Positions 20,961-64,000 of a stretch of DNA of 64,000 nucleotides are shown piece after piece. The stretch lies in contig NC_021741.1 in NCBI RefSeq assembly GCF_000422085.1, positions 1,550,001-1,614,000 of the forward strand, read 5' to 3'. This DNA is from Serratia liquefaciens ATCC 27592. GTDB taxonomy: Bacteria > Pseudomonadota > Gammaproteobacteria > Enterobacterales > Enterobacteriaceae. A model generated the notes under the pieces. That model saw only the letters and a list, made by a program, of their open reading frames with translations, was not told the origin of the DNA and made no database searches. Position 1 is the stretch's first letter. Every line of letters starts with the position of its first letter. Position numbers and translations under genes: made by a program.

Positions 20961-20999
20961 CAGTGCATTGGTAGCTGAAAGCCAGGGGCGGTAGCGTGG
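20961..20999 (+). promoter_or_regulatory. JUMPstart element with ops (RfaH recruitment)
   Basis: The segment aligns with the enterobacterial JUMPstart (GGTAGCTG, then AGCCA). The core ops motif GGCGGTAGCGTG is intact at 20987-20998. RfaH binds paused RNA polymerase at ops and suppresses termination across long polysaccharide operons. A small stem (20995-20999 with 21005-21009) follows directly. Confidence 0.9.
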
Positions 21000-21087
21000 C
21001 TAAACCACGTTGATCCAGATTTCATAAGCGTCTTGGGATAGGCTGAGTTCAGCTGCGTTATAGTTATTTGATTGTGGATAAAAAAAC

Positions 21088-21987
21088 ATGCAAAAGAGAC
21101 TGAAGGCTGTGATCCCCGTAGCTGGCCTGGGAACCCGTATGTTGCCAGCCACGAAAGCCATTCCTAAAGAAATGCTGCCGGTGGTCGATAAACCACTGAT
21201 TCAGTACATTGTTAACGAGTGTGTGGCTGCCGGGATCAAAGACATTGTGCTGGTCACCCACTCCTCAAAAAATGCGATTGAAAACCACTTCGATACCTCT
21301 TTTGAGCTAGAGGCCGTTTTGGAATCCCGCGTAAAGCGTCAGTTACTGGAAGAAGTGCAGACTATCTGCCCAGCCGACGTGACGGTTATGCAAGTGCGCC
21401 AGGGGCAGGCAAAAGGTTTGGGTCACGCGGTGTTATGTGCCAAACCTATGGTAGGTGATGAGCCATTTGTCGTTTTGCTGCCTGACGTATTGTTGGATGA
21501 TTCCACTGCAGACCTGCGTAAAGAAAACCTGGCCAAGATGATCGAACGTTTTACGGAGACTGGTTTTAGCCAGATCATGGTGGAACCGGTACCGGAGCAA
21601 GACGTCTCGAAATACGGGGTTGTCGATTGCGGTGGTGCAACGTTATCTGCAGGTCAGAGTACCCCGATGACGGCGGTTGTTGAAAAGCCAGCGCTTGAAG
21701 ATGCACCTTCTAACTTGGCGGTAGTGGGGCGTTATGTTCTGTCGGCCGATATCTGGCCGCTACTGGAAAAAACCTTACCGGGCGCCGGTGATGAAATTCA
21801 ACTGACCGATGCCATTGCGGCATTGATGGAGCAGGAAACCGTAGAGGCTTTCCACATGAGCGGCAAATCACACGACTGTGGTGATAAGCTGGGTTATATG
21901 AAGGCATTCGTGCAGTATGGTCTGCGTCACACCTCGGAAGGCGAAGGCTTTACCCAGTGGTTAAAGCAGACGTTGAACAGCAAGTAA
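21088..21987 (+). CDS. galU: UTP-glucose-1-phosphate uridylyltransferase, GalU type
   Basis: 299 residues. It makes UDP-glucose from glucose-1-phosphate and UTP. The nucleotide-binding loop is the active form, [19 protein letters not shown] at about 13-31. DEIQLTDAI and [11 protein letters not shown] are GalU-like rather than GalF-like. It is the first gene behind the JUMPstart and lies 45 bp upstream of galF. In E. coli galU is elsewhere, so this copy may be either the only galU or a locus-dedicated paralogue; the window cannot tell. Confidence 0.85.
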
Positions 21988-22032
21988 GAGTTGCGGCTGA
22001 AAAGACGATCATAATATTGAAAGAGGATTACC

Positions 22033-22926
22033 ATGACCAAGTTGAAAGCTGTCATTCCTGTTGCAGGGTTGGGTATGCGTATGCTGCCTGCAACCAAGGC
22101 TATTCCCAAGGAAATGTTGCCGATCGTCGATAAGCCATTGATTCAATATATTGTCAATGAGTGTGTTGCGGCAGGAATCAAAGAAATTATTTTGGTGACG
22201 CACTCTTCTAAAAATGCGATTGAAAACCATTTCGATACCTCATTCGAACTGGAAGCCATGCTTGAAGCGCGTGTAAAACGTCAGTTGCTGGACGAGGTAC
22301 AGTCGATTACACCAAAAGGTGTAACACTGATGCATATTCGTCAAGGTCAACCAAAAGGGTTAGGGCATGCGGTACTTTGTGCTAAACCCTTAGTAGGTGA
22401 TTCGCCTTTTGTCGTTTTACTTCCCGATGTCTTACTTGATGACGCAAAAGCCAATCTGAAAAAAGACAACCTTCCGCATATGATTGCCCGCTTTGAACAG
22501 ACAGGCCTGAGTCAGGTGCTGGTTCAGGCAGCCGATGAGCATGTGCTGCATGATTACTCCGTTGTTGAATGTGAGACTAACAGCTTACAGCCAGGTGAGA
22601 GCTCGCGGATGACTTCTATTATCGAGAAGCCTGGTCGCGAGGTGCAACTGAAGTCCAATTATTCCGCAGTGGGACGCTATGTTTTGTCTGCAGATATTTG
22701 GCCACTCCTTGAGAAGACCGAGCCAGGGGCCTGGGGACGGATCCAGCTTACGGATGCCATTGCTGAACTGTTAAAACACAAACCGGTTGAGGCAATGGAG
22801 CTGGTGGGCGAATCATTCAACTGTGGCGAAAAAATGGGGTATCTGCGGGCATTTGTCACCTATGGTTTGCGCCATCCTACTCAGGGTAAGGCTTTTCGTG
22901 CTTGGGCAGAGCAGCTTTCATTATAA
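22033..22926 (+). CDS. galF: GalF, GalU-like uridylyltransferase subunit
   Basis: 297 residues, strongly similar to the upstream galU. It carries GalF hallmarks: GLGMRMLP (threonine of the nucleotide loop replaced by methionine), [12 protein letters not shown] and FNCGEKMGY. GalF proteins have little or no catalysis of their own and are thought to modulate GalU and UDP-glucose supply. They mark the 5' edge of enterobacterial O-antigen and capsule loci. A strong terminator follows about 65 bp downstream. Confidence 0.88.
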
Positions 22927-23217: not shown

Positions 23218-24354
23218 ATGGCAAAAAAACAATGGAAACTGATACCGCTTTTGGTATCGATCAGTGTGATCAGTGGCTGTACGATCGTCCCCGGTTCTCA
23301 CCTTTCAACCAGTGGCAAAGATGTAGTCAAGCAACAGGATAGTGATTTTGATATCGATAAGTTGGTGAATATTTATCCAATGACGCCAAGCCTGATTGAA
23401 AAATTACGACCAAAGCCAGTCATAGCACAAGCTAATGCATCACTAGAGCGAGAACTACAAAATTATGAATATCGCATTGGCGTTGGCGATGTGCTAATGG
23501 TGACCGTATGGGATCATCCAGAATTGACTACGCCGGCGGGCCAGTATCGTAGCGCAAGCGATACGGGTAACTGGGTGAATTCTGATGGGACTATTTTTTA
23601 CCCGTATATTGGTAAAGTAAAAGTTTCAGGAAAAACAGTTAGTCAGGTCCGTGGCGACATAGCAGGAAGGTTGGCACAGTATATTGAAAGTCCGCAAGTT
23701 GATGTCAGTATTGCTGCATTTCGTTCACAAAAAGTTTATGTGACCGGTGAAGTCGAAAAGTCAGGCCAGCAACCTATCACCAATGTTCCATTGACAATTA
23801 TGGATGCAGTCAACGCGGCGGGTGGTTTAAGTGCTGGCGCGGATTGGCGAAATGTAGTGTTGACACATAATGGAAAAGAGCATCGGATTTCTTTGCAAGC
23901 CTTGATGCAAAAAGGTGATTTGACTCAGAACCGCTTGCTGTACCCTGGTGATATCTTATATATCCCGCGTAATGATGATTTGAAAGTTTTTGTGATGGGT
24001 GAGGTAAAAAAACAATCCACTTTACGTATGGACAGAAGCGGGATGACTTTGACTGAGGCGCTGGGTAATGCTGAAGGTATGGATCAGGCCATGTCAGACG
24101 CAACCGGTGTGTTTGTCATTCGTCCATTACGTGGAAGTGAAGGTCAGAAGATTGCGAATATCTATCAGTTAAATGCTTCAGATGCATCTGCGTTGGTGAT
24201 GGGAACCGAGTTCCAATTGCAACCTTATGATATCGTTTACGTTACTACTGCACCAATAGTTCGTTGGAATCGTGTTATTTCACAATTGGTACCAACAATT
24301 ACAGGTGTACATGATATGACTGAAACGGTACGTTTCATCAAACAATGGAATTAA
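23218..24354 (+). CDS. wza: Wza, outer-membrane polysaccharide export lipoprotein
   Basis: 378 residues. A lipoprotein signal peptide has its lipobox ending at C21 (SVISGC). Poly_export and SLBB domains follow ([32 protein letters not shown]), with a C-terminal amphipathic helix ending in a tryptophan that forms the octameric pore. Nearly every motif of E. coli Wza is kept. It exports Wzy-polymerised polysaccharide across the outer membrane. It is followed at 3 bp by wzb and then wzc. Confidence 0.97.
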
Positions 24355-24357
24355 CAT

Positions 24358-24792
24358 ATGTTTGATTCAATTTTAGTTGTTTGCGTAGGTAACATATGCC
24401 GCTCTCCTATAGGGGAGCGTCTTCTTAAACAGAAACTGCCACACAAAAAAATAGCTTCTGCAGGTCTTGGTGCCTTAAAAGGACACTCTGCGGATGATAC
24501 TGCGATAGAGGTATCTTCAGAGAAGGGCCTTTCTCTGGATGGGCATATTGCTCAGCAGCTTACAGCCACATTATGCAGGCAATATGATCTTATTTTAGTA
24601 ATGGAAAAGAGACATATTGATGCGGTGAGCAACATTCAACCTGAAGTTCGCGGAAAGACAATGCTTTTCGGCCATTGGGTTGATAAGAAAGAAATTGCAG
24701 ATCCATATCGGCAAAGCAAAGAAGCATTTGAGCATATATATAAACTCCTCGAAGAGTCCGCTGAACAGTGGGCTCAGGTGCTGAATAAATAA
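24358..24792 (+). CDS. wzb: Wzb, low-molecular-weight protein-tyrosine phosphatase
   Basis: 144 residues. The P-loop CVGNICRSP (catalytic C9, R15) and the general-acid motif D115-P are present. It dephosphorylates the tyrosine-rich tail of Wzc, cycling the kinase that regulates polymer length and export. It is tightly packed between wza (3 bp) and wzc (15 bp). Confidence 0.96.
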   Translation: MFDSILVVCVGNICRSPIGERLLKQKLPHKKIASAGLGALKGHSADDTAIEVSSEKGLSLDGHIAQQLTATLCRQYDLILVMEKRHIDAVSNIQPEVRGKTMLFGHWVDKKEIADPYRQSKEAFEHIYKLLEESAEQWAQVLNK

Positions 24793-24807: not shown

Positions 24808-27000
24808 ATGTTAGATAAAAGCAAGGGGTCTGCATCCCCAAATGTAGCGAAGAATGAAGATATAGATTTAGGGCGATTGGTCGGAACATTAATTGACCAT
24901 CGTTGGTTGATTACTGGTGTCACATCTATATTTGCTCTAATAGGTTTGGTATATGTCATATTTGCAACACCAATATATCAAGCAGATGCATTGGTTCAAG
25001 TTGAACAAAATATGGGTAGTTCTATACTCAGTGATATATCTAAAGTCCTCCCAGATAGCCAACCGGTTTCAGCAACTGAAATTGAGTTGATTAAGTCCCG
25101 GATGGTTATTGGTAAAACGCTGGATGAAATGAATTTAGATACTGAAGTGGAACCTAACTACTTTCCAGTATTTGGCAAAGGCTTTACGCGTCTCACCAAA
25201 AGTATTAGTGAAAGACCTCAGGTTGCTCTGAGTAGTTTGCGTGTTCCAAATTATTTGTTAGATGAAAAATTAAAATTGTCCTTTAAGAATAAAAATTCTT
25301 ACGAGTTATCATACGGTGGCGATAAAATTTTAGATGGTAGCATCGGTAAATTATCAGAAGCCCATGGCGTAAGTATTCTAGTTAGCGACTTCCAGGGGGA
25401 CGAAGGTACTAGTTTTACTGTAAAAAAACGCCCTAGGCTCGATGCAATTAATGATCTTATCGATAAGATGACTGTAGCAGATAAAGGAAAAGATACCGGA
25501 ATTTTGGCTCTGAGTTTGACAGGGGATGATCCTACCAAGATAAAGAAAGTTCTTAATAGCATCATCAATAATTATCTGCAGCAAAATGTTGAAAGAAAAT
25601 CTGAAGAGGCAGGGAAAAGCCTCGAATTTTTGAAAGAGCAATTACCGCAGGTCAGACAGAATCTGGATTTAGCAGAAAATAAGCTTAATCAATTCAGACA
25701 GCAAAATGATTCAGTCGATCTGTCGTTAGAGGCAAAATCCGTTCTGGATACAATGGTGGCGGTAGAGTCTCAACTTAACGAGCTAACGTTCAAAGAGGCC
25801 GAAATTTCCAAGCTGTATACGAAAGAGCATCCTGCATATAGAGCATTAATTGAGAAAAGGGCAACTTTAGAAAAAGAAAAGGCCAAACTCAATAAACGCG
25901 TAAGTAATATGCCGAAAACACAGCAAGAGATTCTAAGTTTAACGCGGGATGTCCAAGCTGGTCAAGAAGTGTACATGCAGTTGCTAAATAAACAGCAAGA
26001 GTTAAGTATAAATAAAGCAAGCACCGTAGGTAATGTCCGAATTATTGATTATGCAGATACTCAGCTAAAACCAGTGAAGCCAAAGAAGATTTTCTTTGTA
26101 TTGTTTGCTGTTATTTTAGGTGCGGTAATCTCAGTGACGCTTGTGTTAATAAAAATGTTGCTGCATAAGGGTATTGACAGTGCGGAGGAGTTGGAAAGTA
26201 ACGGCATCAGTGTATATGCGAGCATTCCACTATCAGAATGGCAAAGTGCAAAAGATAAAGAGCTAGCCTTACGTGGTAAGAAATTAAATACACGTTCAAA
26301 TGAGTTGTTAGCGACAGGTAATCCTGCCGACTTAGCTATTGAGGCAATTAGGAGTTTGAGAACTAGTTTGCATTTTGCAATGCTAGATGCAAAGAATAAT
26401 ATTCTAATGATTTCAGGTGCAAGTCCTTCTATTGGTAAAACTTTCGTGAGTGTGAACTTGGCTGCAACCATTGCGCAGTCCGGGCAGAAAGTCTTAGTTA
26501 TTGATAGTGATATGCGCAAAGGTTATATACACGATATCTTTGGTTTTACCGCGAACAATGGTCTGTCTTCTATATTGGCTGGACAGCTCAGTGCAGAACA
26601 AACGGTTATTCGGTCGAATGTCGATAATCTAGATGTAATAGCTAGAGGTAAGGTCCCGCCGAATCCCTCCGAATTATTGATGAATGAACGGTTCGAAAAA
26701 CTAATGAAGTGGGCAAGTGAGCATTATGATTTTGTGCTTATTGATACGCCACCTATTTTAGCTGTCACTGATGCGGCAATAATAGGGCATCATGTTGGTA
26801 CTTCGCTAATGGTTGCGCGTTTTGAAATCAACACTACAAAAGAAGTTGAAGTTAGTATTAGGCGCTTTGAACAGAATGGTGTCGAAATTAAAGGTGTGAT
26901 TCTTAATGCTATGGTACGGAAGTTAGGTTCCTACTACTCGAATTACGGTTACTACCAATATGAATATAAGAGTGACAGTAAAAGTAAGGGAAGCAAATAA
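24808..27000 (+). CDS. wzc: Wzc, polysaccharide co-polymerase and tyrosine autokinase
   Basis: 730 residues. It has a Wzz-type N-terminal chain-length domain with membrane segments near residues 33-53 and about 430-450, and periplasmic coiled-coil helices at about 265-375. The cytoplasmic BY-kinase has Walker A GASPSIGKT at about 535-543, Walker A' VLVIDSDMRKG at about 563 and Walker B LIDTPP at about 645. A tyrosine cluster closes the protein (about 707-721). It controls export and length together with Wza and Wzb. Confidence 0.96.
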   Translation: MLDKSKGSASPNVAKNEDIDLGRLVGTLIDHRWLITGVTSIFALIGLVYVIFATPIYQADALVQVEQNMGSSILSDISKVLPDSQPVSATEIELIKSRMVIGKTLDEMNLDTEVEPNYFPVFGKGFTRLTKSISERPQVALSSLRVPNYLLDEKLKLSFKNKNSYELSYGGDKILDGSIGKLSEAHGVSILVSDFQGDEGTSFTVKKRPRLDAINDLIDKMTVADKGKDTGILALSLTGDDPTKIKKVLNSIINNYLQQNVERKSEEAGKSLEFLKEQLPQVRQNLDLAENKLNQFRQQNDSVDLSLEAKSVLDTMVAVESQLNELTFKEAEISKLYTKEHPAYRALIEKRATLEKEKAKLNKRVSNMPKTQQEILSLTRDVQAGQEVYMQLLNKQQELSINKASTVGNVRIIDYADTQLKPVKPKKIFFVLFAVILGAVISVTLVLIKMLLHKGIDSAEELESNGISVYASIPLSEWQSAKDKELALRGKKLNTRSNELLATGNPADLAIEAIRSLRTSLHFAMLDAKNNILMISGASPSIGKTFVSVNLAATIAQSGQKVLVIDSDMRKGYIHDIFGFTANNGLSSILAGQLSAEQTVIRSNVDNLDVIARGKVPPNPSELLMNERFEKLMKWASEHYDFVLIDTPPILAVTDAAIIGHHVGTSLMVARFEINTTKEVEVSIRRFEQNGVEIKGVILNAMVRKLGSYYSNYGYYQYEYKSDSKSKGSK

Positions 27001-27002: not shown

Positions 27003-28121
27003 ATGAAAGTACTATTACTGACTAATGAGTATAGTCCCTTTAATGGAGGGATTTCCCGTTATACTCAAATGCTTGTTCAGCATAAACCAGCTGGTGTGGA
27101 GATCGAGCTTGTAGCACCTAGTTATCATAAAGAAGTTTCCGAGAATAGCGACGCGCTTAAAATTAAAGTGAAGAGATATAAGGGTGGGAAGTTTACATGG
27201 AAGGATTTCCCCACGCTTTTAAAAATAGTGGCGAAAATAAATACTCGCGAATATGATAGGATTCATGTGGCTGACTGGCCATTTTGGCTTGCAGTTTGTT
27301 TTAGAAACAAATTTATGCCATGGAAGGAAAAAATAAAATTCACTTGTACCATTTATGGCAGTGAGATTCTTAATTTTAAGAATGGCAGAATCTCTCTATT
27401 GGTTAAACGACTCTTACCATTTAGAGATGTCACAGCATTATATCCGATAAGTGATTATACCAAGAATATCATGGTAAATACGTTTCCGGAAAGCCGAACA
27501 CTACCATGTAAAACAGTACTATTGGGTATTGATGAGGCTTGGCGAAAAGAGATTGATGTTAATGATATAAAAAGAAAAGTGGACCAGGATAAAACGGATT
27601 TTGTATTGGTTACAGTGGGGAGGCTGGATTCTAGGAAGGGGCATGATCTAATTATCGAGGCGATTAGCCAGTCTGGTTTGGCTGCTAATATTATATATAA
27701 TGTTATTGGCAGAGGTGATGATGATTATAAACGTGCCCTTAAAGATCTTGGGGAAAAAAATAATGTCAGAGTAAATATATTTGATAATTTAAGTGATGAT
27801 GAAGTTAAATGCCAATATAGACAGTCTGATCTATTCGTTTTAGCTGCGCGTACAGATGCACGAAAAGTTGAAGGCTTCGGGCTTGTTTTTCTTGAAGCAG
27901 CTGCATGCGGTGTGCCTTCATTAGCTACGAACGTTGGGGCTATCCCAGAAGTCGTCAGTTCAGGATTAGGACTTATAGTTGAAGAATCCAGTGACAGTAT
28001 TGCATCAGGTATTCGTCAGTTGTATTACGACACAGAGCAACTAGCCAGTCTCAAGCAGACATGCGGAAAAAAAGCTGCTTCCTATAATTGGGAAAAAACC
28101 GCGCAAGAAACCTTCTCATAA
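27003..28121 (+). CDS. Glycosyltransferase, GT4 family
   Basis: 372 residues with a GT-B fold. The N-terminal start MKVLLLTNEYSPFNGGISRY and the C-terminal domain with the E-x7-E motif E290-GFGLVFL-E298 place it in GT4 (retaining, nucleotide-sugar donor). The donor and acceptor cannot be read from sequence. It starts 2 bp after wzc and probably assembles the exopolysaccharide repeat unit at the cytoplasmic face. Confidence 0.88.
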   Translation: MKVLLLTNEYSPFNGGISRYTQMLVQHKPAGVEIELVAPSYHKEVSENSDALKIKVKRYKGGKFTWKDFPTLLKIVAKINTREYDRIHVADWPFWLAVCFRNKFMPWKEKIKFTCTIYGSEILNFKNGRISLLVKRLLPFRDVTALYPISDYTKNIMVNTFPESRTLPCKTVLLGIDEAWRKEIDVNDIKRKVDQDKTDFVLVTVGRLDSRKGHDLIIEAISQSGLAANIIYNVIGRGDDDYKRALKDLGEKNNVRVNIFDNLSDDEVKCQYRQSDLFVLAARTDARKVEGFGLVFLEAAACGVPSLATNVGAIPEVVSSGLGLIVEESSDSIASGIRQLYYDTEQLASLKQTCGKKAASYNWEKTAQETFS

Positions 28122-28148: not shown

Positions 28149-29363
28149 ATGAAAGGAAGTATAATTAACATAGCATGTCAGTTTTTGAAGCTTGGTTTTC
28201 AGTTCCTGTATTTTACAATTGCTGCAAAAATGCTCGGGGCTGATAAATTTGGTCTTTGGGCATCTATATCTGCGTTGTGCAATATTCTTAGCCCACTTAT
28301 CATTATGGGTATCGGACCTTGTATAATAAAGGTACATGCTTCTGATAAAAACTATAGCTTATTTAGGAGTTATTATTACTTAGGTGCTATTCTACTTCTT
28401 CTCGGAACATTGATTTTAACGCCTGTAGCTGGCCTGTTATATAAAACGGATTTCTACACGGTATCATTAGTGTTGCTTGCCGAGCTATTTGTATTTCGGC
28501 AGGTAGAGTTGTTATCACAAATGTACTTGGCTAAAGGAAATAAGCTTGCTTTCTCACTTTTCCCTGTCGTATTTATAATATTCAAACTGTCATTTGTTTT
28601 TTCGACAGATTGGATTAATATATCAAATGACTTTATTTATATGAATTTCTTAGCATCATTAATATTTATAATTCCAGTTATGTTCTGGGAGGAGCTAAGG
28701 AGTATAAAAGGAAACGTGAAGCTGAAGTTTTTATCAGCAATAAACATGATGAGAGAAGCTATCTATTTTTCGTTGGCAACAACGGCAAAGACAGTATATA
28801 CGGATTCAGACAAGGTTATTTTAGGTACTGTTAATAATTTAAGAGATGTAGCAAACTATAATATTGCCTATAAATTAATTAGTTTAGTTTTCGTACCTGT
28901 TTCTGCTGTATTATCCATTCAAGCTCCGACTTTATACTATCTTGGTTCATTAAAGAACAAGTCTGAGCTTAAAAGAAAAATAACACGCCTTATAATATTA
29001 TGTGTTTCGATGTCGACGATAATTGGTTTGGTAATGGTCACAACTCTTCCATTTATCATAAGCTTCTTTGGTCATGAGTATGCCGCTGCTAAAAACATGG
29101 TTTATCTTTTATTGCCAGCTCCGATAATAATGAGTATGCATTATGTTTTTGCTGATGGTATTACCGCTATGGGATTCCAAAAGTTGCGGGCATATATGTC
29201 AATTATTACTGCGGTAATAAATGCGGTTTTGGGGTTGATCTTTATACCTATATATGGTGTTGCGGGGGCGGTTGCTGTTACTCTATTTTCCGAAAGTCTT
29301 CTGCTGATACTATTTTCATCTGTTTATAGAGCGAAATTAAAGAAAAAATATGATGAATATTAA
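28149..29363 (+). CDS. wzx: Wzx flippase, lipid-linked oligosaccharide
   Basis: 404 residues, about 12 membrane segments, with Polysacc_synt/MVF superfamily character: KGSIINIACQFLKLG at the N-terminus, and the long basic loop around residues 190-215. Flippases of this type move undecaprenyl-linked repeat units to the periplasmic side. The 3' end overlaps the next gene by 14 bp. AT-rich codon use is unlike the backbone genes. Confidence 0.85.
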   Translation: MKGSIINIACQFLKLGFQFLYFTIAAKMLGADKFGLWASISALCNILSPLIIMGIGPCIIKVHASDKNYSLFRSYYYLGAILLLLGTLILTPVAGLLYKTDFYTVSLVLLAELFVFRQVELLSQMYLAKGNKLAFSLFPVVFIIFKLSFVFSTDWINISNDFIYMNFLASLIFIIPVMFWEELRSIKGNVKLKFLSAINMMREAIYFSLATTAKTVYTDSDKVILGTVNNLRDVANYNIAYKLISLVFVPVSAVLSIQAPTLYYLGSLKNKSELKRKITRLIILCVSMSTIIGLVMVTTLPFIISFFGHEYAAAKNMVYLLLPAPIIMSMHYVFADGITAMGFQKLRAYMSIITAVINAVLGLIFIPIYGVAGAVAVTLFSESLLLILFSSVYRAKLKKKYDEY

Positions 29364-30519
29364 AATATCATGGTGGGGAATATACGTATTAACAGCGTTT
29401 ATATTAGGTTGCGTTAAGGTAAACATTGGTAATGGCGATGTTTATTTTATTGATATTTTTAGCGCTCTAACGTTTTTTTATGTTGTTACGAATATTCCCA
29501 ACTCGATTAGAACAAAGTCATTTATATTTATTATCAGCTATACCTTGATTTGTTGTTTAATTGCTGTAAATTCTTCGATAAGGCACGGAGTACAGCTCCC
29601 TACGATCGTAGGTATGGTTAGGTATTTTGAATATTTGATATGGGGTGTGGCCTTTTTCATTAAGTATCAACATAATTATGATACGGGAAAAGTCCCTATA
29701 GAAATTAAAATATTATATATATTTTTACTTGCTGTATCAATTCTGCAATTCTTTGGTTTTACAGTTTTTCTTGAATCATGGCAAGAATTCAACTTCAAAT
29801 ATGGCGATGGATTCCGTGCACCTGGTGTTTTTTTACATCCTAATATTAATTCATTCTTTCTTTCGTTTTTCCCGATATTGTATTTTTATGGGCGACGAGA
29901 AAATATTCGAATTCAGATGCTGGTTGCATTTATAATTGTTGTCGCTTTAGTGTTAACGAATAGTCGAGGGAATTTTGCAATAGCCAGTATTGCTTTTGTT
30001 ATGCTTTATGTCCGAGGAATAAAAATTACCCTTCTAGCAGTATTTGCTGTTTTGGGAGTTATTGGGATATCCAGTTATATCGACTATTCTGGCTTGGCTG
30101 GTTGGTTACGTTTGGACTCAAGCTATTCATTAACTGACAATACCTCTTTCACTTTACGATTACAGCTTTGGGAAAGTGCATTAAAGATGTTTTATCAGTC
30201 TCCAATTTTGGGGCAGGGATTTAAGCAGTTTCCTGTGTTAACAGATGTATTTATTTGGGGAGACTCGGGGAACGGTGTTGAAGAAGTTAAAACACATGCG
30301 AATTCATTTATCCTAGGTTCCTTGGCTGAGAATGGGCTGGTATTTACGCTTCTAATTCTTTATAGAATGAAAAAAATTCTAGCTGAGTACGGAACAATGT
30401 TTTTCTCGCTATTTGTTTTTATTTTAATGTATGACGATTTGTTCCATGATCCATATTCAATGACATTGCTACTCTTTATGGCAATTTCTTTAACTAGGTA
30501 TAAATTGGATGAAAAATAA
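29350..30519 (+). CDS. wzy: Wzy, repeat-unit polymerase (O-antigen ligase superfamily)
   Basis: 389 residues with about 11 membrane segments and a large periplasmic loop at about 255-320. It has a Wzy_C-like region (LTNSRGNFAIASIAFVMLY; core SRGNF, and the histidine-containing KTHANSFIL). It polymerises flipped repeat units in the periplasm. As usual for Wzy the primary sequence is poorly conserved, so the call rests on topology, the SRG and H-N motifs, and position after wzx. Confidence 0.8.
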   Translation: MMNIKISWWGIYVLTAFILGCVKVNIGNGDVYFIDIFSALTFFYVVTNIPNSIRTKSFIFIISYTLICCLIAVNSSIRHGVQLPTIVGMVRYFEYLIWGVAFFIKYQHNYDTGKVPIEIKILYIFLLAVSILQFFGFTVFLESWQEFNFKYGDGFRAPGVFLHPNINSFFLSFFPILYFYGRRENIRIQMLVAFIIVVALVLTNSRGNFAIASIAFVMLYVRGIKITLLAVFAVLGVIGISSYIDYSGLAGWLRLDSSYSLTDNTSFTLRLQLWESALKMFYQSPILGQGFKQFPVLTDVFIWGDSGNGVEEVKTHANSFILGSLAENGLVFTLLILYRMKKILAEYGTMFFSLFVFILMYDDLFHDPYSMTLLLFMAISLTRYKLDEK

Positions 30520-31699: not shown

Positions 31700-31706
31700 G
31701 GATTAT

Positions 31707-34666: not shown

Positions 34667-34671
34667 AAATT

Positions 34672-45945: not shown

Positions 45946-45999
45946 GCCGTGAACTTGCCGGGCGGGGCCACAGCGCCGCCTGCAGTCGAAGGAGTTGGT

Positions 46000-50438: not shown

Positions 50439-50439
50439 A

Positions 50440-51860: not shown

Positions 51861-52002
51861 CATAATGCTGGTATATACACTCTGAATCTTGATGATTAGG
51901 TATGGTTCAATACGATACTTGGGTTAAGACCCTTGTGTAAAAATTCCCAGGCTTGATGAAAAAGTTTTTATTTCAGATACATGGATGCGAATAAGGATTT
52001 TT

Positions 52003-55084: not shown

Positions 55085-56458
55085 ATGAGTAGCTTAACCT
55101 GTTTTAAAGCATATGATATTCGCGGCCGGCTCGGTGATGAGTTAAACGAAGATATTGCCTACCGCATTGGTCGAGCTTATGGTGAATATCTGAAACCGCA
55201 GCGAGTTATTGTCGGTGGAGACGTGCGGTTGACCAGTGAATCACTCAAACTGGCCTTGGCTAACGGATTGCGAGATGCTGGTGTTGATGTGTATGACATT
55301 GGTATGAGTGGCACCGAAGAAGTGTACTTCGCGACTTTCCATCTGGGTATGGACGGTGGTATCGAAGTTACGGCTAGTCATAATCCAATGGATTACAACG
55401 GCATGAAACTGGTTCGTGCGAATGCACAACCGATAAGTGGTGATACCGGTCTGTTGGCAATTAAACAACTGGCCGAAAAAAATTCGTTCCCTTCTGTTGT
55501 GGAAAACGAACGCGGGAGCTATCAGGAAATATCAGTCCTGAAGGAATATGTTGATCACCTGCTAAGCTATATTGATACTTCGACATTGAAACCGATGAAG
55601 CTGGTGATTAACTCCGGAAATGGTGCTGCAGGACATGTTGTCGATGAAATAGAGCGTCGATTTAAACAAAATAATGTCCCTGTGTCTTTTGTCAAAGTTA
55701 ACCATCTGCCGGATGGTAATTTCCCTAATGGAATACCTAATCCATTATTGCCGGAATGTCGTGCTGACACAGCGAAAGCTGTACTTGAGAATCAGGCTGA
55801 TATGGGGATTGCTTTCGACGGTGATTTTGACCGTTGCTTCCTGTTTGATGAGAAAGCCAACTTTATCGAAGGTTACTACATAGTTGGTCTTCTGGCCGAA
55901 GCTTTCTTGCAAAAAAATCCAGGCTCCAAGATTATTCATGACCCCCGCTTGTCATGGAATACCATCGATATTGTTAATCAAGCCGGTGGTATTCCTGTCA
56001 TGTCCAAAACGGGGCATGCTTTTATCAAAGAACGCATGCGAAAAGAAGATGCCATCTATGGCGGTGAAATGAGTGCGCATCATTATTTCCGGGATTTTGC
56101 CTATTGTGATAGTGGCATGATCCCGTGGTTGTTGGTGTCTTCCTTGTTTTCTATTAAAGGGATGCCGCTAAGTCAGTTGGTAAAGGACAGAATTCAGGCT
56201 TATCCAGCATCTGGTGAGATAAATCGAAAGTTAAGTTATGCTTCTCAGAAAATAAAAAGCATAAGGGATATTTATGAAAGAGACGCATTGCGAGTTGATT
56301 TAACTGATGGTATCAGCATTGAATATTCCGACTGGCGCTTTAATCTACGGACATCGAATACTGAACCCGTTGTACGACTGAATGTAGAATCTAAGGGAGA
56401 CATCGGTCTGATGAATGAAAAAACGGGTGAGATCTTGACGCTCCTTGGTGGGGAATAA
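55085..56458 (+). CDS. manB: Phosphomannomutase (second, intact copy)
   Basis: 457 residues, full length for CpsG/ManB. TASHNP carries the catalytic S98, DGDFDRC binds metal, and the sugar-binding [10 protein letters not shown] and phosphate-binding [14 protein letters not shown] loops are intact. It converts mannose-6-phosphate to mannose-1-phosphate. It lies 15 bp after manC and 2 bp before wzm. Confidence 0.96.
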
Positions 56459-56460: not shown

Positions 56461-57255
56461 TTGAAAGAGTTACTGTTGACTATTTATCGTTATCGAGGAT
56501 TTATTCTTGGTAGCGTAAAAAGAGAGTTTCAAATTCGTTATAAAATGAGCATGCTAGGTGCGACCTGGCTCATTCTTCAGCCTTTGTCAATGATTTTGGT
56601 TTACACATTAATTTTCTCTCAAGTAATGAAAACGCGACTTCCTGGAACGGGAGGTGCATACTCTTACAGTATTTATCTATGTGTAGGGATAATTACATGG
56701 GGTTTGTTTGCTGAGATTATTAGTAGAAGCCAAAATATCTTCATAGAAAGTGCAGGATTATTGAAGAAATTAAATTTCCCCCGAATATGCTTGCCAATTA
56801 TTGTGGTTATATCAGCGATAATAAATTTTTCCATCATTTTTTCTCTGTTTATTATATTTTTGATTATTACCGGAAATTTCCATTTTCTCTCTATTGTGGA
56901 AATAATTCCGCTACTAATGATTGAAGTCGTATTTGCATTAGGTTTGGGCGTGGTACTGGGGGTTGTCAATGTTTTCTTCCGTGATGTTGGACAGTTTGTC
57001 ACTGTGTTGCTGCAGTTCTGGTTTTGGTTTACCCCGATCGTCTATGTATTAGCTACATTGCCAGTATGGGCTCAGGGTATACTAAAATACAATCCGATGG
57101 CAGTTTTGGTTGATAATTATCAGCGCGTTGTTATTCATCAACAGCCGATCGAATGGGGTAGTATCTGGCCAGTAATGGTGGTGGCTATTGCTCTATGTAT
57201 TTTAGGCATGCACCTTTTTAGAAAGCATGCAGCAGATATGGTGGATGAATTATAA
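56461..57255 (+). CDS. wzm: Wzm, O-antigen ABC transporter permease
   Basis: 264 residues from a TTG start at 56461, with GGGGAATAA ahead. ABC2_membrane family with about six membrane segments and the amphipathic N-terminal REFQIRYKMSMLGATWLILQ that begins these permeases. It forms the inner-membrane channel that exports finished undecaprenyl-linked O-polysaccharide. Its stop shares one base with the wzt start. Confidence 0.93.
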   Translation: MKELLLTIYRYRGFILGSVKREFQIRYKMSMLGATWLILQPLSMILVYTLIFSQVMKTRLPGTGGAYSYSIYLCVGIITWGLFAEIISRSQNIFIESAGLLKKLNFPRICLPIIVVISAIINFSIIFSLFIIFLIITGNFHFLSIVEIIPLLMIEVVFALGLGVVLGVVNVFFRDVGQFVTVLLQFWFWFTPIVYVLATLPVWAQGILKYNPMAVLVDNYQRVVIHQQPIEWGSIWPVMVVAIALCILGMHLFRKHAADMVDEL

Positions 57256-58484
57256 TGGGACAAATTTCAGTTGATAGTGTTGGCAAAGCCTATAAAAAAT
57301 ATTCATCGCGCTTTGGTCGTTTAATTGAGTGGATTTCACCTTATAATGTTGTTAAGCATTCGAAAGTTTGGGTTTTAAATGATATTACCTTTAAGGTACG
57401 TCCTGGCGAAGCTGTCGGTATCATTGGTATAAATGGTGCAGGAAAAAGTACACTCTTAAAGTTAATCACAGGTACTATCCAACCGACTGTTGGTAAAATA
57501 CAACTAACAGGTCGAGTTGCAGCGTTGCTCGAATTGGGTATGGGCTTCCATCCTGATTTTACAGGTAGACAAAATGTCTATATGTCTGGTCAATTATTAG
57601 GATTGAATAACAGCGATATAGATAGGTTAATGCCTGAAATTGAGGCGTTTGCGGAAATTGGCGAATACATAGACCAACCTGTTAGGGTTTACTCTAGTGG
57701 TATGCAAATGCGTTTGGCATTTAGTGTTGCCACTGCCGTGAGACCCGATATATTAATTGTAGATGAAGCCTTATCAGTAGGTGATGCTTACTTCCAACAT
57801 AAAAGCTTTGATCGTATACGTAGGTTCCGAAGTGAGGGGACCACGTTGTTAATCGTCTCTCATGACAAAATCGCAATACAGTCTATCTGCGACAGAGCAA
57901 TTTTGCTTAATGCAGGAAGAATAGAAAAAGAAGGTGAACCTGAAGCAATTATGGACTACTACAATGCCATGCTTGCGGAAAAATCGGGAACAACACGAAC
58001 GGTCAAACAAGAACTCACAGAATCTGGGCAGCTTCAAACAATTTCTGGCTCCGGAGATGCTAAAATAAAGGATATTGGTTTGTTTTCACTTGATAATAAG
58101 CCTGTTGAAATTATCAGTGTTGGTGATCGTGTTAATTTAAAAATAACCGTAAAAGTCGAAAGTAATATCCCTGAACTTGTTCTTGGCTATATGATAAAAG
58201 ACCGGCTGGGACAACCTATTTTCGGAACCAATACATATCATCTTGGTAAGATGTTAAGTGATCTAAATGCAGGGCAAGAAATAGAATTTTATTTCAAGTT
58301 CGATATGAATTTAGGTGAGGGTAACTACTCAATTGCAGTTGCTCTTCACGATCGCGATACTCATATTAACAAAAATTATGAATGGCGAGATTTAGCATTT
58401 GTATTTAATGTGATAAATGTTAATAAAGACACATTTGTAGGAGTATCTTGGTTACCTGCGGAGGTGGACATTAATGAAAGATAG
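57255..58484 (+). CDS. wzt: Wzt, O-antigen ABC transporter ATPase with carbohydrate-binding domain
   Basis: 409 residues. The ATPase domain (1-about 250) has Walker A GINGAGKST at 58-66, the signature YSSGMQMRLAFS and Walker B ILIVDEALSVGD. A C-terminal beta-sandwich (about 265-409) of the Wzt_C type is present; in E. coli O8/O9a this domain recognises the modified non-reducing end of the polymer. Its presence argues for export coupled to a chain-terminating modification, matching the methyltransferase that follows (11-bp overlap). Confidence 0.94.
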   Translation: MGQISVDSVGKAYKKYSSRFGRLIEWISPYNVVKHSKVWVLNDITFKVRPGEAVGIIGINGAGKSTLLKLITGTIQPTVGKIQLTGRVAALLELGMGFHPDFTGRQNVYMSGQLLGLNNSDIDRLMPEIEAFAEIGEYIDQPVRVYSSGMQMRLAFSVATAVRPDILIVDEALSVGDAYFQHKSFDRIRRFRSEGTTLLIVSHDKIAIQSICDRAILLNAGRIEKEGEPEAIMDYYNAMLAEKSGTTRTVKQELTESGQLQTISGSGDAKIKDIGLFSLDNKPVEIISVGDRVNLKITVKVESNIPELVLGYMIKDRLGQPIFGTNTYHLGKMLSDLNAGQEIEFYFKFDMNLGEGNYSIAVALHDRDTHINKNYEWRDLAFVFNVINVNKDTFVGVSWLPAEVDINER

Positions 58485-59916
58485 TTTTTACAGTTCCTTC
58501 GAGAATAAACATCGTGGGAGTCGTGAATCAATAAAAGAACGACTGAGTGTTTATATGCCATTCGTTTTGCCATTCAGAAATTTATATCCTGGTGAAACTA
58601 TTATTGACCTGGGATGTGGCCGAGGGGAATGGCTAGAAATTATGAAGTCCCTTGAGTTTGATGGAAAGGGAATTGATCTAGACGATGGGATGCTTTCATA
58701 CTGTTACGATCTTGGTCTAAATGTTGAAAAAGGGGATGTGATTTCATTTTTAGAAAATATTCCCGATGATTCAGTTGCCATTATATCATCTTTCCATTTG
58801 ATTGAGCATATTGGGTTTGATAACGTCAAACGATTGGTTGAAGAGTCTTTCAGGGTGCTAAAACCAGGTGGTCTACTGATTATGGAAACGCCTAACCCTG
58901 AAAATATTATTGTATCAACCAATAATTTCTATCTTGATCCAACACATATAGTCCCTATTCCAAGTTTATTATTAGGTTTTCTTACAGAGCATCAAGGATT
59001 TGAGCGTACTAAAATATTACGCCTCCAAGAGGATAAGAGCCTAAATACTAAACAAAATATTCAAATTATCGATGTTCTTGGTGGTGTTAGTCCTGATTAT
59101 AGCGTTGTCGCTCAAAAAAGAGGTGAGTTAGCCTCATTAAGCCTGCTAGATGCCGCCTTTGATGCCAACTACGGAATTGGATTACAAGAGTTATCAAATA
59201 AGTTTAATCAATATTTAGAAAACTCATTCAAAACTAGGGATGAGAAAATTTCAAGTTTAGATGATGCTGTGAGTAAGCTGAACCTCTTGGAATATGACAA
59301 AAAAATAAAAAGAATTAATCAACTTGAGAGTGAGATTGAGCAGGTGCGACAAGAGATAAATCAAACACCGCAGTCCGGGGAGTTTGAAAAACTATCTGAG
59401 CTTTTCCTATCACACTTAAGAGAAGAAAATTCCGATTTAAAAGTGAAGCTATCCGAGTTAAATAATCAGCTGAGTGTAGAGTCTCAGCGTCATGCTGATA
59501 GCCGGAATATGATTAATTTGATTTACTCAAGTACATCATGGAAATTAACATCTCCGGTTCGTGCCGTTTCTAGAGTATTACGTTGTTGTATTAATGCATT
59601 AAAAATAAATAGCTTTAAGAGTCTTATCCAAAGAGGCAAATCTTATCTGAAAAGAAAATTAGTCGGCTTTTTTAGAGTTGGAATTCGTATTTTAAATAGG
59701 AAACCTAAACTAAAAGGAATTCTATTGAGAATTGTAAATAAGATGGGTTTTTATGACTTTGCCAAGAAAATATACTATAAATCTTATGGGCAGTCGATTT
59801 TATCTAATCCACAAAATTGTAGTTCAAGCGAAGAGTCTGATTTGTCTCCCAAAGCTAGAGAAATTTACAAAGCTCTAAAGAAAAAAAGTTCCAGCGATAT
59901 CATGAGGAACCGTTAA
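58474..59916 (+). CDS. WbdD-like chain-terminating methyltransferase without kinase domain
   Basis: 480 residues. A SAM-dependent methyltransferase domain (about 30-200) has DLGCGRG at 45-51 and FHLIEHIGFDNVKRLVEESF. A coiled coil follows at about 255-370. The C-terminal tail has STSWKLTSPVRAV and a run of basic helices ending PKAREIYKALKK, resembling the WbdD C-terminus that recruits and terminates the polymerase. E. coli O9a WbdD has a kinase domain between methyltransferase and coiled coil, absent here. Inferred role: caps the O-chain with a methyl group, setting length and creating the Wzt_C export tag. Its end shares one base with the next gene. Confidence 0.7.
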   Translation: MKDSFYSSFENKHRGSRESIKERLSVYMPFVLPFRNLYPGETIIDLGCGRGEWLEIMKSLEFDGKGIDLDDGMLSYCYDLGLNVEKGDVISFLENIPDDSVAIISSFHLIEHIGFDNVKRLVEESFRVLKPGGLLIMETPNPENIIVSTNNFYLDPTHIVPIPSLLLGFLTEHQGFERTKILRLQEDKSLNTKQNIQIIDVLGGVSPDYSVVAQKRGELASLSLLDAAFDANYGIGLQELSNKFNQYLENSFKTRDEKISSLDDAVSKLNLLEYDKKIKRINQLESEIEQVRQEINQTPQSGEFEKLSELFLSHLREENSDLKVKLSELNNQLSVESQRHADSRNMINLIYSSTSWKLTSPVRAVSRVLRCCINALKINSFKSLIQRGKSYLKRKLVGFFRVGIRILNRKPKLKGILLRIVNKMGFYDFAKKIYYKSYGQSILSNPQNCSSSEESDLSPKAREIYKALKKKSSSDIMRNR

Positions 59917-62900
59917 TGCGTATAGTAATAGATATGCAAGGACTGCAAGCGAGCAACGCCAAAAGGGGCATCGGGCGTTATACCTCAGACTTAATTGAAA
60001 ATATGCTTGCATTGAACATAAAGCATGAAGTTATCCTTTTGTTAAACGGTATGTTGCCTAACAGTATTGATAATATCCGCCGGAATTTTAGTCGCTATTT
60101 GCCGACCGAAAATATTATTGTGTGGAGTGGGGTGGGGCCAGTAAATGCTTTAGATGAAAGTAATGTTCAACGGCGAAAAATTTCGGAGAAAATTAGAGAG
60201 GATTTTATAAAAAAAATATCTCCAGATGTGCTGTTGATTACTTCATTGTTTGAAGGGTTGTCCGATGATGCTGTAACAAGTATTGGAAGTGTTATAACTA
60301 GTGTTCCTACCGCAGTGATTCTTTATGATCTTATTCCATTAATACATAAAGAAGTATATTTAGAAAATAGTATGGTCGAAAATTGGTATTTGAATAAAAT
60401 TGATCAATTACGGCGAGCTGACATGCTATTGTCAATTTCAAACTCCTCAGGAGGTGAAGCCGTTCGTTACCTAGGTTTCGATAAGAAAGATGTCATCAAT
60501 ATCTCAACCGCCTGTGATAAAGAATTTAAAAGAATAAATTTATCCGAAATTGAGCGTTTGGCTCTTTCTGATAAATACAAATTATATACCCCATTCATTA
60601 TGTATACTGGTGGGATTGATCACAGAAAAAATATTGAAGGATTGCTCAAGGCCTTCTCGTTGTTGCCTGAAAAACTGAGAGCTGATCATCAGTTGGCTAT
60701 TGTCTGCTCTATCCAGGAAACGGATCGAATTCGATTAACTCAATTGTGTAAAATATATGGGTTGAATGAACAGGATGTCATCTTTACCGGTTATATTCCT
60801 GAGTCGGATTTAATTTCCCTATATAATGCCTGTGAATTTTTTGTTTTCCCGTCTTGGCATGAAGGTTTTGGTTTACCTGTATTAGAAGCAATGTGTTGCG
60901 GAAAGGCTGTTATTGGGGGAAATAGATCAAGCATCCCTGAGGTAATTGGTAATGAAGAGGCTTTGTTTGATCCATATGATAGCCAAGAGATAGCAGACAA
61001 GATAGCGAAGGTTTTAACAGACAAAGATTTTAAAGCATCGTTGGAAAAACATGCTGAATCACAGTCTCAAAATTTCTCGTGGGGTATTTCTGCGAAGAGT
61101 GCATGGGAAGCACTGGAGAAATTTCAAGAGGAAAATACAGCTAATAAATCATCTTGCAAACTTTCCCCCTCCAATAATCGGAAACGATTGGCTTATATAT
61201 CGCCATTGCCACCGGCTAAAAGCGGCATTGCAGACTACAGTGCTGAGTTGATATCTGAACTTAGTCGGCACTATGTCATTGATGTAATCATTGCGCAGAA
61301 TGAAAAAGTAATAGAACCCTACGTTACTTCTAACTGCAGTATAAGAGACATCAAATACTTCGAAGAAAATGCTGCTCAATATGAGCGTATATTATACCAC
61401 TTCGGTAATTCTGCTTTTCATGGACATATGTTCAAACTATTGAATGATTATCCAGGAGTTGTAGTTCTCCATGATTTTTTCATCTCCGGGGTTGTTGCTC
61501 ATGTCGACGTTACTACCGCACAAATTCCGGGGTTTTGGAGTAAAGAGTTACATAAATCAGGAGGGTGGCCTGCTGTATTTATGAGATATAAAGCAGCAGA
61601 CACCGCGGATGTTGTATATAAATACCCTTGTAATATATCGGTATTGCAAAGCTCTGTAGGAGTTATTGTTCATTCTGATTTTTCTAGAAGATTAGCCTCA
61701 TCATTATATGGGCATACCATCACTTCTGACTGGGCATTAATTCCTCACTTGAGAGTCCCAGTTTATGATGTGCCGCGTAAAAAAGCACGAGAAACACTCG
61801 GGATTGACGAAAATGCGTTTGTAGTTTGCAGTTTTGGTTTGTTAGGCCCGACAAAACTAAATCATAAACTACTTACTGCTTGGTTAAATTCTCCATTGTC
61901 AGATAATGAACGGTGTCATCTTGTGTTTGTTGGCGAAAACCATAACGGCAAATATGGTGAAGATTTACTGAGGCTAATTAAGAAAAGCAAAAATGGAAAG
62001 AGAATAAAAATCACCGGTTGGGCCGAAGCTGATGATTATAAAATGTGGCTCGCTGCCGCTGATGTTGGGGTCCAGCTTCGGACGCTTTCTCGTGGGGAAA
62101 CTTCAGGCACTGTGCTAGATTGTATGAATTATGGTTTAGCAACGATAGTTAATGCTAATGGTTCTATGGCGGACCTTGATGATTCCTGCGTTGCGAAGCT
62201 AGTCGATGATTTTTCTGAGATTGATCTTATTGATATTCTTAAATTACTTTATAATGATATTGGTTATAGAGAACGTTTAAAATCTGCCGCTATAAATAAA
62301 ATCAGAATATTACATAAGCCAAGAGCTTGCGCTGAAGAATATAAGATGGCTATTGAGAAGTTTTTTAATAATTCGCATCACAGCGCTCAAAAACTGGTTG
62401 ATAGCATTATTAATGAGGCGGAGGATGATATATCCGGAGAGTATTTGAAGCTGGCTACAGCCATTACCAATAACTACGAACCTGAACCTAGGAAAAAACA
62501 ATTATTAGTTGATGTCTCTGAACTTGTCCAAAGAGATGCTAAAAGCGGTATTCAGCGTGTTGTTAGAGCTATTCTTAACCAGTTACTGCAAAACCCGCCA
62601 GAAGGGTGGGTTGTTGAACCAGTATATGCAACTGAATCCTCCCACGGTTATCGATATGCCCGTAGTTTTACGTGTGCTTTCTTAGGAATACCGTCAGGTT
62701 GGACTGAAGATGCGCCAATCGAAGCCTGGGCGGGAGATATTTTTCTGGGGCTCGATCTTCAGCCAAATATTGTACAGTCTAAGCAGAGTTTCTTACACGA
62801 TATACATCGTCGTGGTATCGGCGTACATTTCGTTGTGTATGATTTATTGCCAATATTAGCACCTGAGTCATTTTTCCCCGGTGCAAAAGATACTTATGAA

Positions 62901-63641
62901 ATGTGGCTTAATTGTATCACCACGTTTGATGGGGCAATTTGTATTTCTCAAACCGTCGCCAATGAGTTATCTAATTGGGTTTGCGTTCAGTATCCAGATA
63001 GGAAATATTCATTTGATATTCAATGGTTCCATTTAGGGGCGGATTTAGTCAGTTCAGTACCTTCAAATGGTAAACTCGCGGATTCTGAGTATGTGCTTGA
63101 AAAAATGTCTAAACGGACAACTTTTTTGATGGTTAGCACGGTCGAACCCCGCAAGCAGCATGCTCAAGTTTTAGCCGCTTTTGAATTACTCTGGAATAAT
63201 GGCGAAGATATTAATCTTGTAATTGTAGGCAAGCAAGGGTGGATGGTTGAACAACTAATCAACCGAATTTCTCATCATAATGAGTTGAATCATAAACTTT
63301 TCTGGTTGTCTGATGTTAGTGATGAATATCTTGAAAGCATTTATGGTGCTGCAGATTGTTTGATTGCGGCGAGCACTGGTGAAGGTTTTGGTCTGCCATT
63401 AATTGAAGCAGCTCAATATGGAAAACCTATAATTGCACGAGATATTCCAGTGTTCAGAGAGGTTGCTGGTGATAGTGCATTCTATTTTGATGGTTTATCT
63501 CCGAACGATCTTTCTGACGCGGTGAATGAATGGCTTAGATTGAAGAGTATCGCTGGAGTCCCCGATGTAACCGGTTTAAAATGGTCAACTTGGGAACAAA
63601 GTGCAATGCAATTATTGAATGCTATTTTAAAAAAGAATTGA
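59916..63641 (+). CDS. Three-domain processive glycosyltransferase (WbdA-like)
   Basis: 1241 residues made of three GT-B/GT4 units. Domain 1 (about 1-400) has MRIVIDMQGLQASNAKRGIG and E316-GFGLPVL-E324. Domain 2 (about 425-820) has PLPPAKSGIADYSAELI and RGETSGTVLDC with E728 but C736 in place of the second glutamate. Domain 3 (about 855-1241) has VDVSELVQRDAKSGIQRVVR and E1156-GFGLPLI-E1164. Such fusions (E. coli O8/O9a WbdA) polymerise mannan-type O-antigens, each domain forming its own linkage. Here mannose or D-rhamnose is likely. Linkages cannot be read from sequence. Confidence 0.85.
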   Translation: MRIVIDMQGLQASNAKRGIGRYTSDLIENMLALNIKHEVILLLNGMLPNSIDNIRRNFSRYLPTENIIVWSGVGPVNALDESNVQRRKISEKIREDFIKKISPDVLLITSLFEGLSDDAVTSIGSVITSVPTAVILYDLIPLIHKEVYLENSMVENWYLNKIDQLRRADMLLSISNSSGGEAVRYLGFDKKDVINISTACDKEFKRINLSEIERLALSDKYKLYTPFIMYTGGIDHRKNIEGLLKAFSLLPEKLRADHQLAIVCSIQETDRIRLTQLCKIYGLNEQDVIFTGYIPESDLISLYNACEFFVFPSWHEGFGLPVLEAMCCGKAVIGGNRSSIPEVIGNEEALFDPYDSQEIADKIAKVLTDKDFKASLEKHAESQSQNFSWGISAKSAWEALEKFQEENTANKSSCKLSPSNNRKRLAYISPLPPAKSGIADYSAELISELSRHYVIDVIIAQNEKVIEPYVTSNCSIRDIKYFEENAAQYERILYHFGNSAFHGHMFKLLNDYPGVVVLHDFFISGVVAHVDVTTAQIPGFWSKELHKSGGWPAVFMRYKAADTADVVYKYPCNISVLQSSVGVIVHSDFSRRLASSLYGHTITSDWALIPHLRVPVYDVPRKKARETLGIDENAFVVCSFGLLGPTKLNHKLLTAWLNSPLSDNERCHLVFVGENHNGKYGEDLLRLIKKSKNGKRIKITGWAEADDYKMWLAAADVGVQLRTLSRGETSGTVLDCMNYGLATIVNANGSMADLDDSCVAKLVDDFSEIDLIDILKLLYNDIGYRERLKSAAINKIRILHKPRACAEEYKMAIEKFFNNSHHSAQKLVDSIINEAEDDISGEYLKLATAITNNYEPEPRKKQLLVDVSELVQRDAKSGIQRVVRAILNQLLQNPPEGWVVEPVYATESSHGYRYARSFTCAFLGIPSGWTEDAPIEAWAGDIFLGLDLQPNIVQSKQSFLHDIHRRGIGVHFVVYDLLPILAPESFFPGAKDTYEMWLNCITTFDGAICISQTVANELSNWVCVQYPDRKYSFDIQWFHLGADLVSSVPSNGKLADSEYVLEKMSKRTTFLMVSTVEPRKQHAQVLAAFELLWNNGEDINLVIVGKQGWMVEQLINRISHHNELNHKLFWLSDVSDEYLESIYGAADCLIAASTGEGFGLPLIEAAQYGKPIIARDIPVFREVAGDSAFYFDGLSPNDLSDAVNEWLRLKSIAGVPDVTGLKWSTWEQSAMQLLNAILKKN

Positions 63642-63679
63642 TTTTTACACGGTGTGTATAACTTGTGATGGATAATAAA

Positions 63680-64000
63680 ATGACTCAAAAAGTAGCCGTA
63701 ATTACTGGTATCACTGGCCAAGACGGTGCTTATCTTGCAGAACTTCTGTTAGAGAAGGGCTATGCGGTTCATGGTACCTATCGACGTACCAGTTCTGTCA
63801 ATTTCTGGCGGATCGAAGAATTGGGTATTGATAAGCACCCAAATCTGAATTTGGTTGAATATGATCTGACCGATCTTTCCGCCAGCATTCGTCTGCTCCA
63901 ACAAACCGGAGCAACAGAGGTATATAACTTGGCAGCGCAGAGTTTTGTGGGTGTTTCATTCGAGCAACCAATTACCACTGCTGAAATCACAGGCATCGGC
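63680..64000 (+). CDS. gmd: GDP-mannose 4,6-dehydratase (second copy), 5' part
   Basis: 107 residues to the right edge of the window; the catalytic Y-xxx-K lies beyond it. [19 protein letters not shown] (about 10-28) and [18 protein letters not shown] match the first gmd at 32739 closely in protein, but codon choice differs. It makes GDP-4-keto-6-deoxy-D-mannose, so the O-antigen operon also points to a GDP-6-deoxyhexose, probably D-rhamnose. The ATG at 63680 was chosen; an in-frame ATG at 63668 is an alternative. Confidence 0.93.

Follow-up and report, generated by a model that had tools for sequence, protein, structure and literature searches.

Which surface polysaccharide, if either, holds the product of an S-layer gene that lies between two polysaccharide loci? 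The question is raised by a stretch of 64,000 nucleotides from Serratia liquefaciens ATCC 27592 (hereafter the window; C1 1550001-1614000 of a 5.28 Mb genome), in which slaA (41203-43794, + strand, 863 aa) is directly followed by lipB, lipC and lipD and stands between a Wzx/Wzy capsule-type (K) locus and an ABC-transporter O-antigen (O) locus. An earlier note on this DNA had placed the slaA-like gene and LipBCD (41.2-48.7 kb) between Wzy-type polysaccharide and ABC-type O-antigen clusters, and indeed all the genes that it named are present, in the order it gave and on the + strand. It went on to propose a module like that of Caulobacter crescentus, with the O-chain as the attachment layer. In C. 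crescentus, the S-layer protein RsaA is exported by a type I system and polysaccharide genes lie nearby. We report here, from a comparison with relatives, that the predicted S-layer anchor varies with the capsule.

SlaA of the window is predicted to be an S-layer protein of the RsaA kind, with LipBCD as its exporter, secretion being assigned by homology. LipB, LipC and LipD each score above the NCBIfam cut-offs, and a C-terminal export signal in SlaA is expected from their linkage. The predicted fold has two domains like those of RsaA, a helical N-terminal domain (NTD) and a beta-rich lattice C-terminal domain (CTD); both parts have fold matches in RsaA, although the match of the NTD to the O-antigen/LPS-binding domain of RsaA has only a modest score. 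The predicted likeness does not extend to sequence, as no sequence-level PDB match was found for SlaA with the single protein, and a profile gave only weak, unrelated rows (best E 0.47). Pfam recognises DUF4214 only. A review places SlaA among the RTX proteins, in its passage on this protein (PMC3034196). We do not file it there, because no hemolysin-type calcium-binding Pfam match, the mark of the canonical RTX nonapeptide, is listed for it up to E=5. The closest named homologues are from Serratia; at 863 aa the protein is of the short type, whereas the S. marcescens type has about 1000. Deletion of slaA in S. marcescens altered the cell wall, and the part of that report concerned leaves undecided whether the entire cell is covered by the layer (PMC6145908).

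A search of 30 genomes within the genus gave a SlaA match in 26, the window's own genome counted, and in the other 25 open reading frames (ORFs) were compared across a region of at most 60 kb surrounding the best match, less at contig ends. In 25 of the 26, lipBCD lies beside slaA with K genes on one side and O-side glycan genes on the other; the exception is G003, where slaA stands alone and its lipB is elsewhere in the genome. The linked unit of S-layer, exporter and polysaccharide genes envisaged in the earlier note is thus borne out, and slaA is not unlinked in most Serratia, the outcome which that note had named as telling against it. This order is ordinary for the genus and was already published in 2022 for S. 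marcescens: the portions of PMC9000132 that describe it give the same gene order slaA-lipB-lipC-lipD, the same exporter families and the same place between capsule and O-antigen loci, with four S-layer genes separating the O-antigen and K loci of strain UMH9. Among the linked genomes, wza/wzb stand at the K locus in 23/25 (the contig of G012 ends before them, and in G006 they are about 33 kb off, past flanking genes), and slaA is inverted relative to lipBCD, pointing away from lipB, in seven (G006, G007, G014, G016, G018, G019 and G021).

The two domains of SlaA differ sharply in variability. In an alignment of 25 proteins (the 26 minus that of G019, whose slaA is broken) read in 40-column blocks, mean pairwise identity is 25-61% over columns 1-400 of 1071 and 64-87% in the blocks beyond. 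Among 25 K-linked proteins (24 from the genus plus G060), the mean is 41% for module 1, 57% for module 3 and 76% for the CTD; module 2, found in the long forms only (19 proteins), has 45%. Within the genus, SlaA is the reverse of the usual S-layer pattern, its NTD variable and its lattice domain conserved; across S-layer proteins, lattice segments are said to vary more than anchoring segments in the relevant section of a review (PMC8559796).

To relate this variability to the neighbouring loci, NTD identity was compared with the Jaccard similarities of the K and O gene sets in 24 genomes (the 25 K-linked ones minus G019; G003 was excluded as unlinked), using partial Mantel tests with gyrB identity controlled. 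The NTD was associated with the K locus (r=0.57, p=0.00025) but not with the O locus (r=0.007, p=0.44, the O sets of inverted genomes being shorter since only 20 kb of their O side was covered). For the CTD, the values were r=0.07 (p=0.12) with K and r=0.22 (p=0.013) with O, and for the NTD with gyrB r=-0.007. The type of the predicted anchor domain follows the K locus beyond phylogeny, which is the behaviour proposed for a matched module. The NTD-K result was stable at clustering thresholds of 40, 60 and 80%; r stayed at 0.55-0.61 after dropping any one of seven K groups, and was 0.46 when only the slaA-distal half of the K locus was used (23 genomes), 0.57 in the 18 genomes of normal orientation and 0.99 (p=0.018) in the six inverted ones. 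The K gene set of G006 ended at galF, without wzc at the K locus, which gives G006/G014 a K Jaccard of 0.70, or 0.35 with flanking genes. Using the latter set, adding G060 and controlling for lipBC left the correlation unchanged (25 genomes, r=0.565).

Individual pairs tell the same story. The seven of 276 pairs with a K Jaccard of at least 0.5 have NTD identities of 0.80-0.99, whereas the 193 pairs below 0.1 have a median of 0.38 and a maximum of 0.60; between these lie 67 pairs at K 0.1-0.2 (median 0.46, maximum 0.68) and nine at K 0.2-0.5 (0.41-0.69). Conversely, NTD identity of at least 0.65 occurs in 12 pairs, seven with K of at least 0.5, three with K 0.29-0.43 and two with K 0.11. The 37 pairs with an O Jaccard of at least 0.6 have a median NTD identity of 0.39, and the 27 of these with K below 0.1 a median of 0.32 and a maximum of 0.56. 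G001 and G010, with an O Jaccard of 1.0 and CTDs 98% identical, differ in K and have NTDs only 46% identical; G012 and G024 have K genes and NTD (99%) in common but different O loci, as do G007, G018 and G021 (NTD 82-86%), with three different O loci. G060, from another genus and added after the pattern had been seen, carries a K locus of the G001 type (Jaccard 0.83); against G001 its NTD is 73% and its CTD 67% identical, the next-best NTD being 53%.

Where the exchanged DNA ends can be read from close relatives. In all 74 close pairs (gyrB at least 0.95, K below 0.2) the NTDs resemble each other less than the CTDs do, and identity, followed leftward from 60 columns inside the CTD, drops between -85 and +42 columns of the NTD/CTD border; 34 of these pairs have further low-identity stretches in the CTD. 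The K-NTD tract shared by G024, G015 and G060 with their respective relatives ends at about +1.1-1.2 kb, which is the same border. Windows of K and NTD in G015 have their best match in G008 in 14 of 16 cases, in G013 in one and nowhere in one, and for those of G060 the best match is G001 in most, not all. The K locus and the NTD are co-transferred, and the transferred stretch stops at the domain junction or close to it.

Why the two should travel together is a matter of interpretation. On balance we favour functional matching, in which NTD type is exchanged with the capsule locus probably because the NTD binds the capsule. The CTD would form a lattice common within a species complex, while the helical NTD, whose predicted fold is similar to that of the O-antigen-gripping domain of RsaA, would serve as the anchor. 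NTD types would be swapped together with the Wzx/Wzy K locus, independently of the neighbouring O locus, each binding the polysaccharide of its adjacent K locus, whether this is free capsule or K polymer carried on lipid A; cells with a mismatched pair might hold their coat badly and be selected against. To the fuller proposal we give an even chance: that one exchangeable cassette comprises the K locus together with the first third of slaA, its exchange leaving the lattice as it was, and that the S-layer is held, matched by serotype, on capsular polysaccharide and not on O-antigen. As the S. marcescens capsule locus is described as without wzi in the sections of PMC13113151 that deal with it, the capsule might in turn owe part of its hold on the cell to the coat.

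The main rival, which we consider rather unlikely, is that a non-homologous capsule cassette merely has the NTD codons as its final portion; its replacement tract would end in the first homologous DNA, the slaA CTD, with no functional match involved. The slaA 5' end adjoins the K locus in 18/25 linked genomes and, as we have seen, tracts stop at the domain border, both as this explanation would have it. Where slaA lies away from a K locus (G003, G045, G190 and a paralogue at 46%), its NTD is not hypervariable, which fits this explanation and functional matching alike. Against mere co-transfer, the six inverted genomes tested have homologous CTD between K and NTD, yet the NTD follows K. The mosaic of inverted G021 is the plainest case: its K genes are 71-83% nt identical to those of G007/G018/G019, in the next 1.6-2 kb (CTD) the match is to its own species complex (81-97%), the NTD returns to G007/G018/G019 (68-78%) and lipB is again of its own complex (93-99%), so that the DNA between K and NTD is of other origin. 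K/NTD pairs common to different species complexes, at about 70-80% nt, have also been kept together while their flanks were replaced. The inverted genomes, and the G021 mosaic above all, speak for selection. Several observations weigh against the functional matching that we favour: G006 and G014 carry the CTD along with K type too; NTD types are too unlike to recombine; and the scattered slaA copies of G002, tried as a linkage-free test, were equivocal. G022, which has NTD identity of at least 0.65 with G009 and G011 at a K Jaccard of only 0.11, is a partial exception to the covariation. The K/NTD pair of the window is a singleton, its NTD sharing at most 39% identity with the NTDs of the other K-linked genomes in the set; as it lacks a partner in the sample, the conclusion extends to the window genome by analogy with its relatives.

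The Caulobacter-like alternative, that the NTD holds the manC/manB/gmd-derived O-chain of the downstream cluster, has in its favour the predicted two-domain protein, the RsaA precedent as presented in part of PMC6978808, and O-side glycan genes in 25/25 linked genomes, with wzm/wzt in 23 (not G002 or G019). In keeping with the 6-deoxyhexose/mannose O-chain of the earlier note, the O locus holds manC/manB plus gmd/rmd relatives. What speaks against this alternative is the lack of any association of the NTD with O-locus type, together with the pairs above of like O and unlike NTD (G001/G010) or like NTD and unlike O, and we regard it as improbable. The resemblance to Caulobacter stands for the predicted protein, while by this comparative proxy the predicted anchor is not specific for the adjacent O-antigen; the anchoring idea was reasonable and its choice of partner probably wrong. 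SlaA might still be bound to a conserved part of LPS. Finally, phages, predators or immune recognition could drive joint replacement of capsule and NTD without any binding between them. The N-termini of SlaA do differ among S. marcescens strains, maybe as antigenic variation (Kawai 1998, as told in the relevant part of PMC3034196). The equivalent RsaA domain, though, sits below the lattice, towards the cell, according to the structural passages of PMC6978808, and such selection by itself leaves unexplained why like NTDs recur with like K loci across species and in another genus; we think it very improbable.

Among known systems, one parallel is Campylobacter fetus SapA/SapB, where S-layer type correlates with surface polysaccharide serotype and attachment is N-terminal (from the relevant parts of PMC3887049 and PMC8559796). 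There the partner is LPS and there are two main types, whereas in Serratia the partner would be a Wzx/Wzy capsule locus with many types. A 2021 review has Gram-negative S-layers held by LPS, in the section concerned (PMC8559796), and SlaA departs from RsaA in that its NTD type goes with the capsule locus and not with the O-antigen locus. The KL-type loci of S. marcescens, as set out in part of PMC9000132, share conserved galU-galF-wza-wzb-wzc and a variable region up to slaA, which is treated there as conserved and used to mark where the capsule locus ends; in our comparison the N-terminal part of slaA falls on the variable side, the cassette reaching into the gene to the domain border. No report of a SlaA NTD varying with capsule was found in a literature search that left subscription papers mostly outside. 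If the proposed matching holds, it would explain the position of slaA beside the capsule locus, two surface layers would be coordinated through recombination so that a change of capsule also changes the grip of the coat, and the anchor of the Serratia S-layer would be testable with published capsule mutants. Even with co-transfer alone, the cassette is split by any scheme of capsule typing that takes slaA as its end point.

Table 1. Features of the K locus, the S-layer unit and the O locus, in window coordinates.
Feature	Coordinates	Strand	Family or remark
galU-like nucleotidyl transferase, K locus start	21088..21987	+	PF00483
galF-like nucleotidyl transferase	22033..22926	+	PF00483
wza, outer-membrane capsule exporter	23218..24354	+	Poly_export, SLBB, Wza_C
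wzb, low-molecular-weight tyrosine phosphatase	24358..24792	+	PF01451
wzc, tyrosine kinase / chain-length regulator	24808..27000	+	Wzz, WZC_N, GNVR
GT4 glycosyltransferase, K locus	27003..28121	+	
wzx flippase	28149..29363	+	PF01943
wzy-type polymerase	29350..30519	+	Wzy_C
GT4 glycosyltransferase, K locus	30509..31699	+	
acyltransferase 3	31683..32705	+	PF01757
gmd-like GDP-mannose 4,6-dehydratase, K locus	32739..33770	+	PF16363 E 8e-137
SDR epimerase/reductase, rmd-like by position, K locus	33782..34666	+	PF01370
GT4 glycosyltransferase, K locus	34663..35781	+	
initiating sugar-phosphate transferase 1	35903..37348	+	Bac_transf
initiating sugar-phosphate transferase 2	37551..38969	+	Bac_transf
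right-handed beta-helix protein, slaA end of K locus	38966..40858	+	PF13229 E 2.5e-7
slaA codons 1-250, hypervariable all-helical NTD	41203..41952	+	predicted polysaccharide-binding anchor; type follows K locus in relatives
slaA codons 251-863, conserved beta-rich predicted lattice domain, RsaA CTD-like	41953..43794	+	
lipB, type I secretion ABC transporter (PrtD-type)	44179..45945	+	TIGR01842 786 bits
lipC, type I secretion membrane-fusion protein (HlyD-type adaptor)	45949..47331	+	TIGR01843
lipD, TolC-type outer-membrane channel	47334..48716	+	TIGR01844
manC copy 1	49014..50438	+	TIGR01479
manB copy 1, split into two ORFs (50365-51351, 51342-51806)	50365..51806	+	
galE	51985..53019	+	TIGR01179
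manC copy 2	53657..55069	+	TIGR01479
manB copy 2, whole	55085..56458	+	PGM_PMM I-IV
wzm, O-antigen ABC permease	56461..57255	+	PF01061
wzt, O-antigen ABC ATPase with carbohydrate-binding domain	57255..58484	+	ABC_tran + Wzt_C
methyltransferase protein, O locus	58474..59916	+	Methyltransf_23/11
glycosyltransferase, 1241 aa, three GT4 stretches, O locus	59916..63641	+	three Glycos_transf_1 stretches

The K locus of the window (21.1-40.9 kb, + strand) is complete, with wza-wzb-wzc, wzx, wzy and an initiating transferase all present. The beta-helix protein at its slaA end is possibly a polysaccharide lyase or hydrolase. The K gene bordering slaA often belongs to a family of the kind that cleaves polysaccharides, a beta-helix protein in the window and G015 and a GH5 cellulase-like one in G007, G014 and G024; it is a GT4 in G011 and has no Pfam match in G013 (loci: window 38966-40858; L031:7165-9180; L051:15413-16747; L044:12684-14030; L119:18340-19641). 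In the two genomes with inverted slaA that were scanned, G007 and G014, the facing gene at the K-locus end is GH5-like.

The O locus begins at 49 kb and continues beyond the window end with gmd and rmd relatives, two GT4 genes and then gnd. It has wzm, wzt with Wzt_C and glycosyltransferases, and no wzx/wzy among the genes scanned. The two ORFs of manB copy 1 overlap in different frames, whereas the manC1-adjacent gene of relatives is unbroken (about 457-459 aa); the split is either real decay or an assembly error. In G005, some 20.5 kb downstream of slaA, manC1 is immediately preceded by a second lipD fragment (204 aa, 94%), an arrangement that would result if an additional glycan cluster had entered between lipD and the O locus with a duplication.

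Other slaA and lip genes were met outside this arrangement. G002 has five scattered slaA copies on C1 (1.23, 1.65, 2.49, 4.25 and 4.75 Mb), three of them beside lipBCD, and their NTDs are more alike than their CTDs in 10/10 pairs. Family-wide SlaA searches, with overlapping draws and stricter limits, matched 7/295 and 10/392 genomes. Outside the genus, G060 and G394 are K-linked; by identical coordinates they are L043 (Serratia sp. AKBS12) and L033, the latter seen with 10-kb flanks, kept outside the counts and with a best NTD identity to the set of 50%. The other two, G045 and G190 (genus g17), have unlinked tandem slaA pairs: K-locus, O-locus and lip genes were not recognised within 40 kb, and lipB is elsewhere in the genome, in G190 with internal stops. 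Plasmid CP053317.1 of Salmonella enterica subsp. salamae (L159) carries lipBCD relatives, with lipB and lipC each in several ORFs and no slaA within the 20.5-kb stretch. SlaA proteins of 859-862 aa (P0112, P0114, P0116 and P0118) are named from Klebsiella aerogenes, K. pneumoniae and K. variicola, and one Klebsiella SlaA cluster represents 82 contigs.

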